A DNA stretch of 64,000 bases from Verrucomicrobiaceae bacterium. GTDB taxonomy: Bacteria > Verrucomicrobiota > Verrucomicrobiia > Verrucomicrobiales > Verrucomicrobiaceae. The translations under genes and the position numbers were made by a program. The notes beneath the pieces were generated by a model. That model was not told where the DNA came from. It was given only the letters and a program-made list of their open reading frames with translations, and searched no databases. Within the stretch, counting starts at the first letter, position 1, and each line of letters starts with the position of its first letter. Location of the stretch: the NCBI GenBank assembly GCA_016795485.1, contig JAEUHM010000012.1:1-64000 (forward strand), read 5' to 3'. Shown here piece by piece: positions 15,355 through 24,568 of this stretch.

Positions 15355-17421
15355 ATGATCTCTCCCGACCAGCATGACATTCTTCCAGGCTACGAAGTGC
15401 TCGACCTAGTCGGGCGCGGCGGGATGGGTGTTGTTTACAAGGCGCGGCAGGTTTCGCTGGATCGGGTTGTGGCCATCAAGTTGTTGCCGCGAGAACTGAT
15501 CCGCGATGACATCGACTTCAAAGAGCGCTTCAAGCAGGAGGCGCGCACGATGGCCAGACTCTCGCATCCGGGAATCGTGCCGGTGTATGACTTTGGTGAG
15601 ACGGGGGACGGGCAGTTGTTCTTCGTCATGGAGTTCATCGATGGCACGGACTTGGCTAAGGTGATCGAGCAACGCGGTGCGCTGCCGGTGCATGAAGCGG
15701 TGCGCATTTTCCGCGCGGTGGCTGAGGCGCTGGTGTATGCGCATGGCGAGGGCGTCGTGCATCGCGATATCAAACCGGCGAACGTGCTAATCAAAGCGAA
15801 CGGCGAGGTAAAAGTGGCTGACTTTGGTTTGGCGAAGATCATTACACCGGGGACGGTGGGCGTTACCGCGACCAGCACATCCATGGGCTCGCATGACTTT
15901 GCAGCACCCGAGGTTTTTGTGCATGGTGGCGATGCGGATCACCGTGCGGATGTGTATTCGCTGGGCGTGATGCTTTACCAGATGCTCACGGGCGTGATCC
16001 CACGCGGCATGTTCAAGCTTCCATCAGAGCGGGTGCCGGATTTGGACGCACGGTTTGATGAGTTGATCTGTAAAGCGCTGGAACAGGATCGCGAGGATCG
16101 CTTTCAGTCCGTGCGGGAGATGCTTGTGGTGATGCAGGAGAGCACGGGCCTGATCCTTGCCTCAGATCGGCAGATCGTGACTCATCCTGCTAAGCAAATA
16201 TGGGTGTGGGTCTCTTCCACGTTGTTGATGTTAGTGGCAGGTGGATCACTCTGGATGCTCAAAGATCAGACGCCGGAGGATTCATCAGCCGTGTTTCGCG
16301 GACATCGCTATCAATACTTTCCGGGTGCATTTACTTGGGTTCAGGCACAGGCCAATGCACTTAGTCTGGGAGGGCATCTGGCTACTTTGACCAGCGCGGA
16401 GGAGAACGAGTGGGCTTGGAAACAGTTCTCTCCGCTACTGAGGTATGAAGGCAAGCCACCTCTGAAGAACAGAGGCTGGTGGATCGGGGGGTTGCCTGTG
16501 GAGCCAGATAAAACGTGGCGGTGGGTCACAGACGAGCCCTTTGAATACGCCTGCTGGTCGCTGGAGAAGTGGCCGACAGCACGCGTGCCTCGTTTGCGTC
16601 AGCATGACAACGGGGGTGACGCTGGCCTCTCTGCCTGGACACCGGTGCATTACTCTGAACGCTGTGGCTATCTGGTGGAGTGGGAGCATTCTGGTAATCC
16701 TCCAGTGGGTAGTGAGGCCGAGGTAAGAGCCTTCCTCTCGTGGCTACTCAGCTTGCCGCGCTCCACCGAACCCAACCACAACGAACACGAAGTGCCGGAC
16801 TTCATGATCGAGGGATCAAACCGCAACTTTCGCCGTCTGTTGGATGTTCCAGCTGGACCCTTGATATTGACCCGCGTGCGCATTGGGCAACTTCAGATCA
16901 ACGATACCGCGCGGCGCTATCTGCAGACCCTCTCACGCCAGACACAGCTCTACGATCTGCGTATTTACAGCACTGACAGTGCCGAGTTGTTTCGCTATTT
17001 GGGTGGGCTCAAGAGGCTTGGCACTTTGGTGATAAAGGCAGCTAAGGGAGGAGCCCTGCCCCTTTCGGATGACGAACTGGTGCATCTCAGCTCCATGTCT
17101 AACCTCAGCCAACTGCGGCTAGAAGGCTGGCATGGCCTGACAGGGTCTGGGCTTGAGCATTTGAAGGAAAAGCGCAAGCTTGTGTCCCTCAGTATCAACG
17201 AATGTCCGGATTTTGATCGTCACGGCATCACGGCCGCAGCGGCTTTCTCTAACCTTGAGACCTTATCCATCGTGGGTGCTCATCGGATAACAGATGAGGA
17301 TGTGAAACAGTTAGCCCCATTGGTTAAGCTGAGATCTCTGGGCCTCGGAGGCACTAGTGTGACACCTCAAGGCATCGCGGAACTACAGAAGCTGATGCCA
17401 GAATGCGTCATTAACCGCTGA
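15355..17421 (+). CDS. membrane Ser/Thr protein kinase with C-type-lectin and LRR outer region
   Basis: A 688-residue protein; the ATG at 15355 sits just before the kinase domain, while the longer frame runs into the divergent gene. Kinase: VGRGGMGVVYKA glycine loop, K42, HRD at 136-138, DFG at 156-158, APE at 184-186. A transmembrane helix lies at about 282-302. Outside is a C-type-lectin-like domain (about 310-440) with WVQAQANALSLGGHLATLTS, GWWIGGLP and CGYLVEW, then leucine-rich repeats ending LRSLGLGGTSVTPQGIAELQ. Both modules bind ligands, so this is a one-chain sensor kinase. It ends exactly where the convergent ECF sigma gene ends (no spacer). The probable target is that sigma factor, by analogy with the first module in this window (inference). 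Confidence 0.9.
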   Translation: MISPDQHDILPGYEVLDLVGRGGMGVVYKARQVSLDRVVAIKLLPRELIRDDIDFKERFKQEARTMARLSHPGIVPVYDFGETGDGQLFFVMEFIDGTDLAKVIEQRGALPVHEAVRIFRAVAEALVYAHGEGVVHRDIKPANVLIKANGEVKVADFGLAKIITPGTVGVTATSTSMGSHDFAAPEVFVHGGDADHRADVYSLGVMLYQMLTGVIPRGMFKLPSERVPDLDARFDELICKALEQDREDRFQSVREMLVVMQESTGLILASDRQIVTHPAKQIWVWVSSTLLMLVAGGSLWMLKDQTPEDSSAVFRGHRYQYFPGAFTWVQAQANALSLGGHLATLTSAEENEWAWKQFSPLLRYEGKPPLKNRGWWIGGLPVEPDKTWRWVTDEPFEYACWSLEKWPTARVPRLRQHDNGGDAGLSAWTPVHYSERCGYLVEWEHSGNPPVGSEAEVRAFLSWLLSLPRSTEPNHNEHEVPDFMIEGSNRNFRRLLDVPAGPLILTRVRIGQLQINDTARRYLQTLSRQTQLYDLRIYSTDSAELFRYLGGLKRLGTLVIKAAKGGALPLSDDELVHLSSMSNLSQLRLEGWHGLTGSGLEHLKEKRKLVSLSINECPDFDRHGITAAAAFSNLETLSIVGAHRITDEDVKQLAPLVKLRSLGLGGTSVTPQGIAELQKLMPECVINR

Positions 17422-18153
17422 TTACTTCCCCACGATGCTCATCAACTGCTCCAGTTCGGCTTTGACTTCAGTTGGATCGCTCACCGTTTCCGCAATGACT
17501 TGTTCAATGAGCTTTGCATACCGCTTCCTCATGCGGTGGATTTGCAGGCGCAAAGTGGCCTCGGTGATGCCGAGCTTTTTTGCGGCAGAGGCATAAGGAG
17601 TAGCGTTTTCGCCGAGAGGGAGGAACTCTCTCAAGTCATCAAAGGCCTCCGCGTTGTCTGCCTTGGCGTAGTCGTCACGGAGTCTTGACTCTGCGGCAGC
17701 GAGCACTTCATGTGCCCAGGCTTTGTCAAAAATCGCATCGGCATCCTCTCCGCCCAGCGGTTCGGCGATGTAGCGCTCTTCGGCGTTGAGTTCTTCAAAG
17801 GATAGAGTGGCAGCCCTCATTCCTCCTCTTTTGTAAGCGCTATCATGTCGAACTTGCTTGCTGATGATGCGCTTGAGCATAGCGAGCATGAAACTGCGGA
17901 GTTTTCCTTTCTCCTGAGTCACGGCCTGCAGAGACTCGTAGCTGACGAGGTTCTGGAAAAACACTTGAGTGAGGTCTTCGGCATCTTCGGCACGGAATCC
18001 GTGGCGGCGTGCATAGGCGTAGATCGGGTACCAGTAGCTGCGGCAGAGCTGGTCCAGGGCTTGGGCCGACTCTCGCTCGCCGCCGTGCTGCACCCTGCGG
18101 ATGAGGGTCCAGCGCGTCAATGGGAAGTCAGAGTTGTGGGAAGTCTCGGCCAT
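17422..18153 (-). CDS. ECF-type RNA polymerase sigma factor
   Basis: A 243-residue sigma factor starting MAETSHNSDFPLTRWTLIRR, the standard start of this family. Region 2: SYWYPIYAYARRHGFRAEDAED and LTQVFFQNLV; region 4: PYASAAKKLGITEATLRLQIHRMRKR. The same frame is open upstream to 18744 and would add about 200 residues, mostly seven-residue repeats of the form QNHSAPL. The short start is preferred because nothing like the extension is known in the family, but see the findings for evidence that the repeats may be translated. Its promoter must lie in or near the 21-bp repeat array that begins 89 bases upstream. It converges with the kinase at 15355-17421 with no gap. Confidence 0.85.
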   Translation of the reverse strand: MAETSHNSDFPLTRWTLIRRVQHGGERESAQALDQLCRSYWYPIYAYARRHGFRAEDAEDLTQVFFQNLVSYESLQAVTQEKGKLRSFMLAMLKRIISKQVRHDSAYKRGGMRAATLSFEELNAEERYIAEPLGGEDADAIFDKAWAHEVLAAAESRLRDDYAKADNAEAFDDLREFLPLGENATPYASAAKKLGITEATLRLQIHRMRKRYAKLIEQVIAETVSDPTEVKAELEQLMSIVGK

Positions 18154-18241
18154 TTTTGGCGTCTGCCGCTGAACATGGAGCGGTTTCTCCCGGAGACAAG
18201 TTACGCCTCCCAGAAGCCCTGCTAGGCCAAATAGAGGGCGC

Positions 18242-18577
18242 GCAGAATGGTTTTGCAAAGGCGCAGAATGATTCTGTAGCGGTGCAGAATGATTCTGTCG
18301 TGTCGCAGAATGGTTCTGCAAAGGCGCAGAATGATTCTGCAGCGGTGCAAAATGATTCTGTCGTGTCGCAGAATGGTTCTGCAAAAGCGCAGAATGATTC
18401 TGCAGCGGCGCAAAATGATTCTGTCGTGTCGCAGAATGGTTTTGCAAAGGCGCAGAATGATTCTGTCGTGTCGCAGAATGGTTTTGCAAAGGCGCAAAAT
18501 GATTCTGTCGTGTCGCAAAATGGTTCTGCAAAGGCGCAGAACCATTCTGCAGCGGTGCAGAATCATCCTGTACCTGC
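18242..18577. repeat. array of sixteen 21-bp palindromic repeats
   Basis: Sixteen head-to-tail units of exactly 21 bases fill 18242-18577 without spacers. Each holds a 13-base core; the commonest, CAGAATGATTCTG, is a perfect palindrome about a central G. Other units have CAGAATGGTTCTG or CAGAATGGTTTTG; unit 15 has the reverse-complement form CAGAACCATTCTG. The eight bases between cores come in three types (TGCAAAGGC, TGYAGCGGT, TGTCGTGTC endings) that often recur in order, giving a 63-base higher-order repeat. 21 bases is two helical turns, so all dyads face one side of the helix. The array starts 89 bases before the sigma start and lies in the 715-base gap before the giant surface gene. Bases 18641-18868 of that gap show no gene or clear promoter. 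Confidence 0.95.
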
Positions 18578-18580
18578 CGT

Positions 18581-18640
18581 AAATTGGGCCAAAAGGCCCG
18601 AAAAGGCCCGAAATGGCCCAAAAATGCCTCGAAAGGCAGC
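18581..18640. repeat. 10-bp phased A-tract / GGCCC repeat
   Basis: Immediately after the 21-bp array come six consecutive 10-base blocks, each starting with an A-run: AAATTGGGCC, AAAAGGCCCG, AAAAGGCCCG, AAATGGCCCA, AAAATGCCTC, GAAAGGCAGC. A-tracts repeated once per helical turn are a known cause of intrinsic DNA curvature. The alternating GGCCC parts also make overlapping short palindromes. The position, between the sigma gene's repeat array and the start of the giant gene, suggests an architectural role in a shared control region; this is inference. Confidence 0.7.
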
Positions 18641-18868
18641 CAACGGGCTAGCAAGGGGCTGGAAGAGGGTTTGGCTGTTTCCAGGTGAGGAGCCGGGGCG
18701 AGCCGAGCCGCCAGTTGCCGTGAAAATAGGGATTGCTTGTCCAATGCAAGGTGGCGTAAAACATTGGCAGCGGGATCTGATCGCCACCAATCTCCCCAAA
18801 TCCGTCACTTTTTTGGAAACAAACCGGCTTTCACCGGTAATGCAACGTGTGAGCCATCTTCTCTGCCC

Positions 18869-21800
18869 ATGAAAACCTATCTGACGCTCATCCTCATCGC
18901 GCTCACGTCATTCGTGAGCGCCGTGGACACCACACCGCCCACGTTGGACATTACCCACACCTGGATTGAGAGGGCGGGCACGCGGTCCAATTTCAAAATG
19001 CTGCTGGACCCGCAGGATGAGACCGGGTTGGCCATGGATGCGATCGTCTTCCGCAGTGCGCTGAACACCTCCACAATCCCAGCTAGCAACCCCTGGCAGT
19101 GGATGCCTTGGAAGCGCGGCGAGCCCTTTGTCCTGGGTTTTACCTGCACCTCCTGCGTGATCGAGATCCGGGCACGAGATGCGGCCAGGAACCTTTCCCC
19201 TGTGCAGAAGCGCTTTTTCCAGGCCCCGTTCCCATACAGCACCAAGGTCAATCTGGTGCCCACGGTCACGGCCGGAGAGTCCTATTCGGGTTCCGCAGCG
19301 AGTGTGAGGGGGCTGTTTATCGGGCGCTTCGATGGTGTTGGCACAGGCGATGACCTTGTGCAGGTAGATCGTGCCACTGGAAACATCATGGTACGCCGCC
19401 AGATCAACGGACAGCCGACGAAGAGTGATGTGAGTTTCACTTTGCCAGCAAATACGATCGAGGACTCTGCGAGCGCTGACTTTGATACCGATTCGAGGGC
19501 GGATTTGGCGATTGTCGCAGGTGGAGCGCTCACGGTGTATCACAACGACGGTCTGGATGGCAGCGGGGTGGTCCAGTTTGGCGCGCAGACGATCAACACC
19601 GCAGGCACGGGCATCACGATATTCAAAAACATAGCTGTAGGTGACGTGAATGGCGATGGGAAGCTCGACATCATCGTGACCGGAGAGGACGGCAGTGCTA
19701 ATCCGCGTGTGGGGTGGCTGATCGCCAACGCAAGCTGGCAGTATGACTCGTCAAACGGCGTCCCAGCACCACCAGGAACGACTCCGGGCAAGGTGGCAGT
19801 GGGTGATATGAATGGCGATGGCAAGCTGGATGTCGTGGCGGTGGATGCAGCGAACAACCAGATGATCGTGTTCAAGAACAAGGGCACAGTCCTTGCAGGT
19901 GATGGCGAAGTGGACGCGAACTATCAGCCACAGACCATCGCCACGGGTCTTGGAAACGGCAGCATGAACGATCCGACCATCCCGCTCATTTCCGCACCAG
20001 TGAAAGCGCTAACCATAGGAGATGTGACCGGTGACGGAAGGCCGGACATCATAACCGTTTTCAGTGAGATACTATACACCAATCCGCTAGACTCTAATGA
20101 CGGACGCACTCAGCAGCACTGGCGTTTGTATGAAAATCGCGGGACTTCAGGCATCCGTCCTCACACGACTGTCATGCTGGGGCAAAGTCCTGTCTCGCAG
20201 ATGACTTTGGAGGAGTTTCCCTCGGATGTGATGCTCATGGAGATGACGAATGATCGCTTCCCTGAGATGCTGTTCACCAACTACTACGACAACAGCGTCA
20301 AGATCATCCGCTTCACCCCGCTTCTGGATACCGCCAACTTCCTCACCACGCTGGATGATGGCACGGGCGTGCCGGAGTTGGATGAGATCAACTACAAGCC
20401 ACTGCTTCCCCCTGGAGAAAGCGGGCCGAGCCGCCTGGCCAAGGGCAAATACCGGTCCAGTTCGGAGGTGAACAGCATCGCCATTGCTTTTGGTGGCTCA
20501 GACACTTCGCGCTGGGACTTGGTCAGTTACAAACCCAAGAATACGGGACAGCTTGCCATCATTGGCGGTGCCACCACCACGAATGACCCCGATGGCTCCG
20601 AGGGTGCTAACGATCAACTGGAGTACTTCGCTTATCCGACAGCTACGATTGATTACTCCCTGACAGTCATCAACAACACCGCCAATCCGCTGAACAATGC
20701 GGTGTTCGATGCGCTATTGCCGAAGGAAGTGACCATCACTGACAACGGAGGAGGTACCGAAGTGCCATCTGGCACTTCCAAGTTTCTACGCTGGACGGAG
20801 ACCTTACCCGGACTCTCCGTTGTGACGAAGACGTTCAAGGTGACCATCAACAGCACCGCCAAACCCGTGATTGTCATCCGGCCCAAGCTCACCGCCAAGG
20901 CAGGGGCCTTCACGGGTAGTGACTACATGCCCAAGGTCACGGTGGATGAACCGATCAGTTTTGACTTGGTCAGTGTGCAGTCAGACACAGACATCACCGG
21001 GCGGACGGCGCATTTTGGTGAGTACATCACCTACCGCATGAAGGTCACCAACAAAGGCCATCAGACCATCACCGACACCAAGGTCGGTATGAGCAGCACC
21101 CCAGCGGGGAGTAAGATCGACGGTGGTTCCGTTAACGATCCAGAAACCCCTAGCACCTTCAGCCCTGGCGAGTCAAAGATCGAGTTCAACGTGCTCTCGC
21201 TTGCTCCAGGAGCCAACAAGGAAGTCTTCGTCAACGTCGAGGTGCGCGAAAAACCACCAGGAACGGTTATAAACAAAAGCATGTATGCTCTGCGGCCCGC
21301 GGGCCGGAAGCGCACCCTGCCCGCCGTCGAAACGGAGATTCGCCCCTCACTGAAGGTCATCGCTAGTTCCAACAAGCCGAATGGAGCAAGTCCTGGAGAA
21401 GAGATCGAGTACACGCTGGTCGTGGAGAACTGCTCGGTCAATGATGCCACCTCTTGCCGAGTCGTCTCGCTCATCCCACCGGGAACGAATCTCGTCAGCG
21501 CTCGGGCCAATGACGGCTCAGGCAACTTCATAGACTCACCACAGCCCATCGTGGGCCTCACGGAGACATCGTCTCCGGCCTATTTCTATGACACTGGCAA
21601 GCTCACGAGGCTGCTGCAATGGAACTTGGGCACCATTCCTGGCGCACCTTTGCGTTCAGGATTGCGCCCACGGAGGACTCTGATGTTCACCGTTAGAGTT
21701 GGCACGGATACGCCTACCTTTTGGACACCAGGTGGGGTACAGACGCCCATCAATGCCAATCTGGACAACTTCAACGTCGTGTACAGTTCTGGAAAAACCT

Positions 21801-24568
21801 TCTTTGCCTACCCGCGCAGGAGCGACGGCAGCATCATCAATCCCTTCAACCTCCTGCCAAAAGAAGCGGCGGATGGGACGGCAGTGGAGATCAACAACAG
21901 CAATCCGCAGCCCGAGCCGTCTTTGCAGCTCACGAAGACCGTGCGTGGACAACGGAACTACTCCCTGCCGGAAGTGCCGGCTGACGGTGATCCGAATACC
22001 GTCGTCTATCCCGTCCAACCACGGGAACCTGGTGCGGGCGATACACCATTCAACGTGCTCAAAAACGGCAGCATCACCTATTGTTTGCATTACTCCAACT
22101 ACGGCAATGTGGCTGCCACCAACGTGAAGGTGCATGACTACATCCCCAGTGGAATGATTTTCCAAGGTTTCGTAGCGAAAGATCGGAAGCTGGTGGAGAG
22201 CCTGGCTTTCTCCCGCTTTTATGACGGCGACGGCGGCATTCTCCCCCGCGGCACCGAGACCTACACCGATAGCAACGGCAACTTTGCTTTTGATCCTGGC
22301 GAGCCCTTCACCGACATCAATGGTAACGGGCTGCTGGATGAACTCGCTCCCGACATCAGGAAGATCCGCAGCTTTGATCTTCACGCCGGCACAGTGCCTG
22401 CGGGCGAAAGCCATCGCTTCTTCTATCAGGCCCAATGCACGCTCGATGTCGGGGGCACGGCCACCAGTCTGTGGGGCGGGGTAAACGGCGTGACGAACGG
22501 CCTTTTCTACACCTACTACAACGGCTACTACCTCAACTGTGACGAGCTGTATTTTCCCGTTAGCGGCGGGCCAGAGGCTGTTGTGGTGAAGGTGGTGAAG
22601 CCAGCCGTTGGACAGTTCATCCGCCCATACGGCCACGTGGGAGCCGCAGCGGCAATAGCTGACCCACCTCCATCCTTCTCGCCACTTAAAACTCGCCATT
22701 CCCGCAGCATTTCGAAAACGAACCTGTCTGCCACAGCTAGCTTTTGCGCTGCCATGCCGGTGGACATCCAGGGCAACGGAGCGTTCTCAAATCTCGAAGT
22801 CACCATGGACATCCCTGTCGGCTACATCGTGCAGGACGCTGTCGTCAAAGACAAGGCTGGTGCCAATGTGGTTAATTGGAAACCCAATCCCACCCCGGCA
22901 GAGAAGCTCACTCATGTGACCCCGGACAACCCTCCAAACAAGCCCGGTGGGAAAGGTCCCTGCCGCATCACCTTCCCTCTAGGCACCCGCACTTTCTGCT
23001 GGCCCATTGTCAAACTTGGGTTTGACCCAGATGTCCTGGCTGATCCAGCGCCCAATGCATTACAAGACGAGTACGGACACACCAAAGAGCCCCTGATCAT
23101 CAAGTGCAATATGATGGGCACCAATCTCACCAAGACTTCCAGCCAGATCAAGATCGACACCATTTCCAACTCTGAGGCCGACGGCAAAGTATTCGTGGGC
23201 CGTGCCGCCCGGATGTCCGTCACCAAGGAGGATCAGATCACCTATGTCATCTTCTGGGGCAACTTGACAGATAACGCAGAGGTCTCCGGCAGGGTTGAGA
23301 TGAAAGTCCCAGAAGGTTGTGACTATGTATCCTCTACAAAGAGAATCAGTAACTATATCCTGACTCCTCCCCTTGATTTAAACGAGTTCGGCAATTTCAC
23401 GGGCGACTACGACCCGAACACCCGTAAGGTGACTTGGAGCATTCCACTTCTGAATGGCTCCGAAGGAGGAGCCGTGACACTCACTGTTAAAGTAAGGAAG
23501 GACTTCGCTGGCAGCCGCATCGACGATGACAGTTGTCGCCTCACGGTAGGCAATCTGAAGACTTTTATCAAGTCTCCGGGGCCGCTCGCCGTAGCCATCC
23601 GAACTGGCGATGTGGATACTCAGTCCAGCGAAATCACTCAACGCTGGCTCCAAGGCGGTCTCGTCAAGAACAACGACGCCATCGTCTCCACCTTGAAGAC
23701 CAACTTCGCTCTCAACGAGAAATCCCATGGCATCACCATCGGAGGTGCTGACTACCTGCAACTCCAAAACGGCATCATCATCATACCGCTGGGGGGGAAT
23801 CGTGCGATGGTCTTGGACGACAATACCAAGGGCATCGTGTCCAACAGTGAAACCATCGTCCGCGTCCTTGCCCAGACGAGCGGTTTTCGAGTTTTTGCCG
23901 GTCCAGGTGCCCCGAATGGCTTCCAATTGGTGAACCCCCCCGGCTACCCTTCCCAACATGTGCATGTTAATAAGATCCTCCGTGATCTCGATGTCCCAGC
24001 TGACAGCCTCATCCGCAAGGGACTCGCTGATGTGATTTGTTGCCGTGGTCTCAATCTCATCCAACCTGGCAGTGCGGATTTCACTGATTTCCCGATCCTA
24101 AGTTCTAACCCAAAGTTCGTTATACCCGGTCCAGACCCCGCCCTTCCTGCATGGTTCACTGCACCCGTTGCCAACATGGGAGGCTTACTGATCAACCCAA
24201 ATGCCCCACGCGTTGTGAAGGGCAATCGTGCGGGAAGTGCCATGCTAGCTGGGCCTACACCTGGAACTCCGGGCGCGGTACTCGCTGGTGGGGCGGCCGG
24301 CTTGATCGGCCAAGACGGTGCCGCCCTTATTGGTCAGGATGGTGCCGCTGTGGTGTCCTCTGACGGCGCTGGAGTTGTGTCCTCTGATGGAGCAGGCTTG
24401 ATCGGCCAAGACGGTGCCGCCCTTATTGGTCAGGACGGTGCTGCCATCGTAGCTGGCGGTGGAGGAAATATTGTCGCCGGTGGAGGGGGCAATATCGTGG
24501 CTGGCGGCGGCGGCAATATCGTAGCCGGTGGTGGGGGCAATATCGTAGCTGCCGGCGGTGGAAACTGA
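18869..24568 (+). CDS. giant secreted surface protein with FG-GAP and DUF11 repeats
   Basis: A 1899-residue protein starting MKTYLTLILIALTSFVSAVD, a clear signal peptide; the longer frame upstream is rejected. Residues of about 130-420 hold FG-GAP/VCBS repeats with calcium-binding loops (VGDVNGDGKLDIIVTG, VGDMNGDGKLDVVAVD, IGDVTGDGRPDIITV). From about 590 to 1200 come DUF11-type beta-sandwich repeats (DYSLTVINNTANPLNNAVFD, YRMKVTNKGHQTITDTKVG, EYTLVVENCSVNDATSCRVV). A further beta-rich stretch leads to a low-complexity tail (about 1800-1899) of IGQDGAAL and GGGGNIVA repeats. Such proteins are exported adhesin- or sheath-like surface proteins. It is divergent from the second ECF sigma gene, with the phased repeat region between them, and is a good candidate for control by that sigma factor (inference). 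Confidence 0.82.
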   Translation: MKTYLTLILIALTSFVSAVDTTPPTLDITHTWIERAGTRSNFKMLLDPQDETGLAMDAIVFRSALNTSTIPASNPWQWMPWKRGEPFVLGFTCTSCVIEIRARDAARNLSPVQKRFFQAPFPYSTKVNLVPTVTAGESYSGSAASVRGLFIGRFDGVGTGDDLVQVDRATGNIMVRRQINGQPTKSDVSFTLPANTIEDSASADFDTDSRADLAIVAGGALTVYHNDGLDGSGVVQFGAQTINTAGTGITIFKNIAVGDVNGDGKLDIIVTGEDGSANPRVGWLIANASWQYDSSNGVPAPPGTTPGKVAVGDMNGDGKLDVVAVDAANNQMIVFKNKGTVLAGDGEVDANYQPQTIATGLGNGSMNDPTIPLISAPVKALTIGDVTGDGRPDIITVFSEILYTNPLDSNDGRTQQHWRLYENRGTSGIRPHTTVMLGQSPVSQMTLEEFPSDVMLMEMTNDRFPEMLFTNYYDNSVKIIRFTPLLDTANFLTTLDDGTGVPELDEINYKPLLPPGESGPSRLAKGKYRSSSEVNSIAIAFGGSDTSRWDLVSYKPKNTGQLAIIGGATTTNDPDGSEGANDQLEYFAYPTATIDYSLTVINNTANPLNNAVFDALLPKEVTITDNGGGTEVPSGTSKFLRWTETLPGLSVVTKTFKVTINSTAKPVIVIRPKLTAKAGAFTGSDYMPKVTVDEPISFDLVSVQSDTDITGRTAHFGEYITYRMKVTNKGHQTITDTKVGMSSTPAGSKIDGGSVNDPETPSTFSPGESKIEFNVLSLAPGANKEVFVNVEVREKPPGTVINKSMYALRPAGRKRTLPAVETEIRPSLKVIASSNKPNGASPGEEIEYTLVVENCSVNDATSCRVVSLIPPGTNLVSARANDGSGNFIDSPQPIVGLTETSSPAYFYDTGKLTRLLQWNLGTIPGAPLRSGLRPRRTLMFTVRVGTDTPTFWTPGGVQTPINANLDNFNVVYSSGKTFFAYPRRSDGSIINPFNLLPKEAADGTAVEINNSNPQPEPSLQLTKTVRGQRNYSLPEVPADGDPNTVVYPVQPREPGAGDTPFNVLKNGSITYCLHYSNYGNVAATNVKVHDYIPSGMIFQGFVAKDRKLVESLAFSRFYDGDGGILPRGTETYTDSNGNFAFDPGEPFTDINGNGLLDELAPDIRKIRSFDLHAGTVPAGESHRFFYQAQCTLDVGGTATSLWGGVNGVTNGLFYTYYNGYYLNCDELYFPVSGGPEAVVVKVVKPAVGQFIRPYGHVGAAAAIADPPPSFSPLKTRHSRSISKTNLSATASFCAAMPVDIQGNGAFSNLEVTMDIPVGYIVQDAVVKDKAGANVVNWKPNPTPAEKLTHVTPDNPPNKPGGKGPCRITFPLGTRTFCWPIVKLGFDPDVLADPAPNALQDEYGHTKEPLIIKCNMMGTNLTKTSSQIKIDTISNSEADGKVFVGRAARMSVTKEDQITYVIFWGNLTDNAEVSGRVEMKVPEGCDYVSSTKRISNYILTPPLDLNEFGNFTGDYDPNTRKVTWSIPLLNGSEGGAVTLTVKVRKDFAGSRIDDDSCRLTVGNLKTFIKSPGPLAVAIRTGDVDTQSSEITQRWLQGGLVKNNDAIVSTLKTNFALNEKSHGITIGGADYLQLQNGIIIIPLGGNRAMVLDDNTKGIVSNSETIVRVLAQTSGFRVFAGPGAPNGFQLVNPPGYPSQHVHVNKILRDLDVPADSLIRKGLADVICCRGLNLIQPGSADFTDFPILSSNPKFVIPGPDPALPAWFTAPVANMGGLLINPNAPRVVKGNRAGSAMLAGPTPGTPGAVLAGGAAGLIGQDGAALIGQDGAAVVSSDGAGVVSSDGAGLIGQDGAALIGQDGAAIVAGGGGNIVAGGGGNIVAGGGGNIVAGGGGNIVAAGGGN
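24299..24565 (+). repeat. coding repeats in the tail of the giant surface protein
   Basis: A 41-base sequence at 24299-24339 is repeated identically at 24395-24435, 96 bases (32 codons) on; it encodes GLIGQDGAALIGQ. Around it run VVSSDGAG repeats, and 24450-24565 encode five near-copies of GGGGNIVA. Codons differ between the Gly repeats (GGT, GGA, GGC, GGG), which argues for selection on the protein sequence and against very recent duplication there, whereas the 41-base pair looks recent. Confidence 0.85.

Follow-up and report, generated by a model that had tools for sequence, protein, structure and literature searches.

Work on bacterial tandem arrays commonly deals with a single sequence family. 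In high-copy operator arrays and iteron arrays, regularly spaced dyads lie on one face of the helix. In helically phased curved DNA (10–11 bp), the period is tied to the helix. Prokaryotic satellites are head-to-tail non-coding arrays, some of which form dispersed families (Leptospira, Methanocella) and which sometimes show a higher-order structure (Subirana and Messeguer 2019, PMC6749651). The dispersed non-coding families described have longer units of 37–69 bp and one sequence per family (PMC6749651). In Verrucomicrobia, REPs bearing GTAG tags are known (PMC3733652).

We analysed a 21-bp tandem array in a stretch of 64,000 nucleotides (hereafter the window) from a Verrucomicrobiaceae bacterium (source genome G000, assembly GCA_016795485.1; the window lies on contig C50, JAEUHM010000012.1). 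On balance, we favour the reading that the array is a member of a class of intergenic minisatellites with a unit of two helical turns, and that it was inserted beside a sigma factor gene rather than evolved as the operator of the sigma module. This class resembles operator and iteron arrays in its regular dyads on the same face, but it has copies away from promoters and unrelated units within one genome. The array shares a helix-tied period with phased curved DNA; unlike it, the array is predicted to be straight and is a true tandem repeat. Head-to-tail non-coding arrangement, dispersal and higher-order unit order are common to this class and to prokaryotic satellites, whereas a constant 21-bp period with changing sequence is not mentioned for the latter in the consulted sections of PMC6749651. 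REP, BIME and REPIN elements (PMC3733652, PMC3116915) are likewise short clustered intergenic palindromes, but the window array has no consistent GTAG/CGTC tag, keeps an exact 21-bp head-to-tail spacing and has no transposase near its copies. The features of the locus are collected in Table 1.

Table 1. Array, flank and neighbouring features in the window
Feature	Positions	Strand	Remarks
Tandem array	18242..18577	.	16 units: imperfect dyad CARAAYSRTTYTG + 8-bp spacer; core inverted in units 15-16
Right flank, copied with array	18571..18760	.	whole also at C40, first part at C29; opens with 10-bp-periodic GGCCCRAAAA
Probable inserted unit (array + flank)	18242..18760	.	missing from sister sigma modules; left end somewhere in 18154-18242
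Promoter-like motif GAAACAA-N13-GGTA	18816..18839	+	upstream of surface gene; compared by eye
ECF-like sigma factor gene	17422..18153	-	neighbour, outside repeat class
Ser/Thr protein kinase gene	15355..17421	+	neighbour, convergent with sigma
Surface-type protein gene, 1899 aa (FG-GAP, DUF11)	18869..24568	+	neighbour, divergent from sigma

The original prediction described sixteen contiguous 21-base units, and the array is indeed 336 bp of 16 × 21 bp without indels. It thus shows the head-to-tail contiguity of a short unit that characterizes a minisatellite or VNTR. Ten dinucleotide shuffles of the complete intergenic sample gave 0 lag-21 arrays; therefore, the array is not a product of chance. 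The units are palindromic, with 13-bp dyads as predicted, but these are less often perfect than had been thought: the exact CAGAATGATTCTG occurs in only 5 units, and the remaining units carry G/T or A/C at mirrored positions. The 63-base pattern of three spacer types holds for units 1–9 (A-B-C three times) and breaks down in units 10–13 (A-C-A-C), which are followed by A in unit 14. With TRF, the array is also detected at periods of 63 bp (3.6 copies, 95%) and 42 bp. Instead of a single reverse-complement unit near the right end, there are two units with an inverted core, CAGAACCATTCTG and CAGAATCATCCTG. A CRISPR was rightly dismissed, as the spacers are not unique but belong to three recurring types. 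The distance of 89 bases to the sigma start (ATG at 18153, minus strand) and the gap shared with the divergent surface gene (start at 18869) were also correct. The proposed helical phasing is supported, and it extends to other intergenic arrays of the source genome through the recurrence of 21 bp.

Homologues of the sigma factor were found at E below 1e-60 in 13 of 68 family genomes. Among the sigma-homologue loci returned, only the window has a 21-bp array upstream of sigma. The original prediction had proposed searching relatives for the array together with the same sigma gene, and seven sister modules (the C40 paralogue, two in G002, one in G003, two in G008 and one in G018) lack it; the array is not retained with the sigma module in relatives, as would be expected of an operator. 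The gap between sigma and the divergent gene is 715 bp in the window and ~57–100 bp in the seven array-less modules, and therefore the array appears to be inserted. Comparison by eye revealed GAAACAA-N13-GGTA in G003 and G018 and GAAACAA-N13-GTGA in G002 and G008. In the window, this shared motif lies outside the array, with the array unit on one side and the surface gene on the other. The short gaps of the sister modules and the position of the motif suggest that array and flank were inserted between sigma and the motif. The motif at 18816-18839, common to relatives in the gap between sigma and its neighbour, is a candidate target of the ECF sigma factor itself. No sigma-70-type promoter match was found near the array. 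Neither terminal inverted repeats nor a target duplication were seen when the ends of the window and C40 copies were compared, and a MITE was rejected on this ground. A 10-bp-periodic GGCCCRAAAA sequence adjoins the array (18591-18634) and also stands beside the C40 and C29 copies.

The source genome has three further copies of this array, whose sequence family we call CAGAAT. The copy at C40:9284-9597 is 90% identical and is followed by the right flank at 84% identity over ~196 bp. A diverged copy at C29:92451-92785 has the opposite orientation and carries the first part of the right flank, and a short diverged copy is located at C18:50326-50445. Two of the three are close copies sharing one flank. 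The C40 copy is flanked by the 3' end of a surface-type gene and by an rpoD-like gene convergent with it; the C29 copy separates two same-strand genes, and the C18 copy is in a gap between tandem genes. According to the original prediction, the same 21-mer at many unrelated loci without control regions would indicate a neutral satellite; the C40, C29 and C18 copies go part of the way towards this. The C40 array has 15 units (A-B-C four times, then A and two inverted units), whereas the window array has 16 in another order. Unit number and order have thus changed since duplication, and array instability is plausible from this comparison of paralogues. Variation of unit number between copies is a further property of minisatellites, and arrays of the relative G023 also differ in it. 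Neither a transposase nor a target duplication that would account for array copying was seen. Both the surface gene of the window (24446-24564) and that of C40 end in IVAGGGGN-like 8-residue repeats (24-bp DNA repeats).

We carried out a period census of 864 kb of the 6.5-Mb source genome (13%), of which 128 kb is intergenic. Genes were called by a simple codon-score method, and an array was defined by 60% identity over 84 bp at a given lag. In intergenic DNA, lag 21 had 8 arrays, lag 42 had 7 and every other lag had 0–2. Of the eight arrays at lag 21, three are CAGAAT copies whose contigs were selected for carrying them, and therefore the unbiased count is five. Coding DNA had no 21-bp excess; it showed a uniform background of one array per lag, probably caused by a run of N. 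The repeat units are mostly unrelated in sequence and include AGACATRCAAAGAGCGTTTGY, GGTTTTGCCAATTGGCGGCAC, CGGGATGCGCCTCRGTSRTCG, a T-tract array and the CAGAAT family. After clustering, the six genomes examined together have 9 arrays with a period of 21, 4 with a period of 42 and no more than 3 with any other period. The class is also present in G023, G068 and G741, and similar arrays occur in two relatives and in spirochaetes; it was not found in 200 kb of the family member G067 or in 93 kb of random G805 contigs. Extrapolation from the sample, as opposed to a direct count, gives ~40–60 such arrays per genome. Periods of 20 and 22 bp are rare, 18, 24 and 30 bp are not raised, and 27 bp occurs once. 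This favours helix geometry over codons. The consensus units are frequently, but not universally, palindromic. In the arrays, substitutions are far more numerous than indels, but lag-based detection favours indel-free arrays, so we base no conclusion on this ratio. No description of the 21-bp intergenic class was found in the open-access literature searched, which is weak evidence of novelty.

In G023, a duplicated unit is found on contig C3 (L084:6277-7034 and L085:6160-6916). It comprises a 21-bp array and ~570 bp with the gene of a small XRE-like HTH protein, whose Pfam matches (HTH_31/HTH_3) fall slightly short of the cut-off. The two units are 98.7% identical over 758 bp, and their arrays, which have a 99% identical flank, differ in unit number. 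Judged from the sequences, this array and HTH gene are a recent duplication.

The CAGAAT sequence itself is patchily distributed. A two-unit pattern, scanned for in ~85,000 species, was present in five genomes, of which three belong to Verrucomicrobia, one is labelled Acidobacteriota and one is from Spirochaetaceae. All five are metagenome-assembled, and therefore contamination is possible. Within the family, the pattern occurs in 2 of 68 genomes, G000 and G023 only. A relaxed pattern matched 1 of 388 genomes in a sample of the phylum and, in the order to which the spirochaete belongs, 5 of 394. Because these searches were keyed to a sequence pattern, they show patchiness of the CAGAAT sequence and not of the 21-bp class. 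In some spirochaetes, the spacers are also palindromic (GGAACGTTCC, GGCCTTGGCC). Unit lengths of 22 and 19 bp were also seen in spirochaete and acidobacterial arrays. Plasmids and phages searched with the array gave no match. One viral contig (IMG/VR, L064:13152-13185) carries a pair of neighbouring 21-bp CAGAATCATTCTG units within AT-rich intergenic DNA. Rfam gave only microRNA matches, far below the gathering scores.

Several other explanations of the array were weighed. The original prediction saw an operator, or a phase-variable switch acting through copy number, for the sigma/kinase module or the surface gene. The location of the array in a divergent gap, 89 bp upstream of sigma, and the differing unit numbers of the window and C40 copies fit this, as do two spirochaete genomes in which different 21-bp arrays lie directly upstream of homologous genes (L079:5940-6150 in G805 and L083:310-550 in G690; the proteins are 48% identical). 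However, copies of the array are also found in convergent and tandem gaps, the sister sigma modules do without it, and the motif shared by relatives lies outside it, beside the surface gene. These results do not bear out the proposal that the array is an operator of the sigma/kinase module, and we regard this reading of the window array as unlikely. It is somewhat less doubtful, though still only a minority possibility, that the array is a protein-binding platform on which dimeric nucleoid or HTH proteins bind the dyads on the same face, spread cooperatively and bridge DNA or silence neighbours. Dyads two turns apart, variable positions mirrored between half-sites and the small XRE-like HTH gene beside the G023 array point in this direction. 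On the other hand, palindromicity is not universal, no HTH gene accompanies the copies in the source genome, and arrays of one genome have unrelated units, so no single sequence-specific protein can serve them all. In the CAGAAT cores, the variable positions are mirrored and mostly transitions, without covariation; dimer recognition and mirrored mutation contexts would both fit this.

Mobilization of a REP/BIME-type element by a Y1 (RAYT) transposase seems very improbable. The units are palindromic, one pair of Y1_Tnp gene and 21-bp array exists in the source genome, and in G068 a 21-bp array lies within ~1.5 kb of three of the four Y1_Tnp loci examined, compared with one lag-21 array in 215 kb of random contigs. 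However, the window units lack a consistent GTAG or CGTC tag at the base of the stem, none of the seven Y1_Tnp genes of the source genome is near a CAGAAT array, and the two best Y1_Tnp genes of G023 have no array nearby. The G068 arrays beside RAYT-like loci (L124:6982-7093, L129:2713-3192, L130:4121-4358) point to a possible link. We give hardly any credence to a protein-coding heptapeptide repeat (21 bp corresponding to 7 codons). One open frame (ORF 17422-18744) extends from 18744 across the array and on into sigma, and the G023 array is likewise crossed by an ORF, one with a signal-like start. Nevertheless, several frames are open at once, because the unit has no stops; periods of 18, 24 and 30 bp are not raised, with 27 bp found once, and spirochaete and acidobacterial arrays include units of 22 and 19 bp. 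Curvature was rejected as a class trait. By a wedge-model estimate, the window array is as straight as shuffled DNA (end-to-end/contour 0.93), whereas some other 21-bp arrays, such as C7:14715 (0.21) and L130 (0.23), are strongly curved; thus, curvature is not common to the class. The RNA of each strand of the array folds much better than shuffled sequence (z −14.3 and −12.8) because the units are palindromic. Selection for a hairpin was rejected, as the arms lack covariation and the outer pair of the window dyads shows A-C, never A-T.

Under the minisatellite reading that we favour, the unit would be 21 bp long, two turns of DNA, and would in most cases consist of two half-sites in inverted orientation. 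Growth, rearrangement, higher-order repeats of 42 and 63 bp and copy-number differences may have resulted from slippage or from unequal exchange among units. Occasionally, an array would be copied elsewhere with one flank, and here the array and ~190 bp were probably inserted into a short gap between the sigma gene and its divergent neighbour. We infer that it has no dedicated function for the sigma module. The two-turn length seems more likely to be set by a constraint at the DNA level, such as helical phase in duplication or same-face packing of proteins, than by coding. A more speculative idea, which we hold to be rather unlikely, is that a sequence-blind process (a duplication enzyme or a DNA-packing protein measuring 21 bp) makes or keeps two-turn intergenic arrays in some bacteria.

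Such arrays should not be taken for operators of the adjacent gene. Their unit length is constant while the sequence changes, both within one genome and between distant phyla, and this separates sequence recognition from helix geometry. It raises the question of which cell component measures two helical turns. If a sequence-blind two-turn process does exist, these arrays would constitute a structural compartment, similar to satellites, within the intergenic DNA of bacteria.
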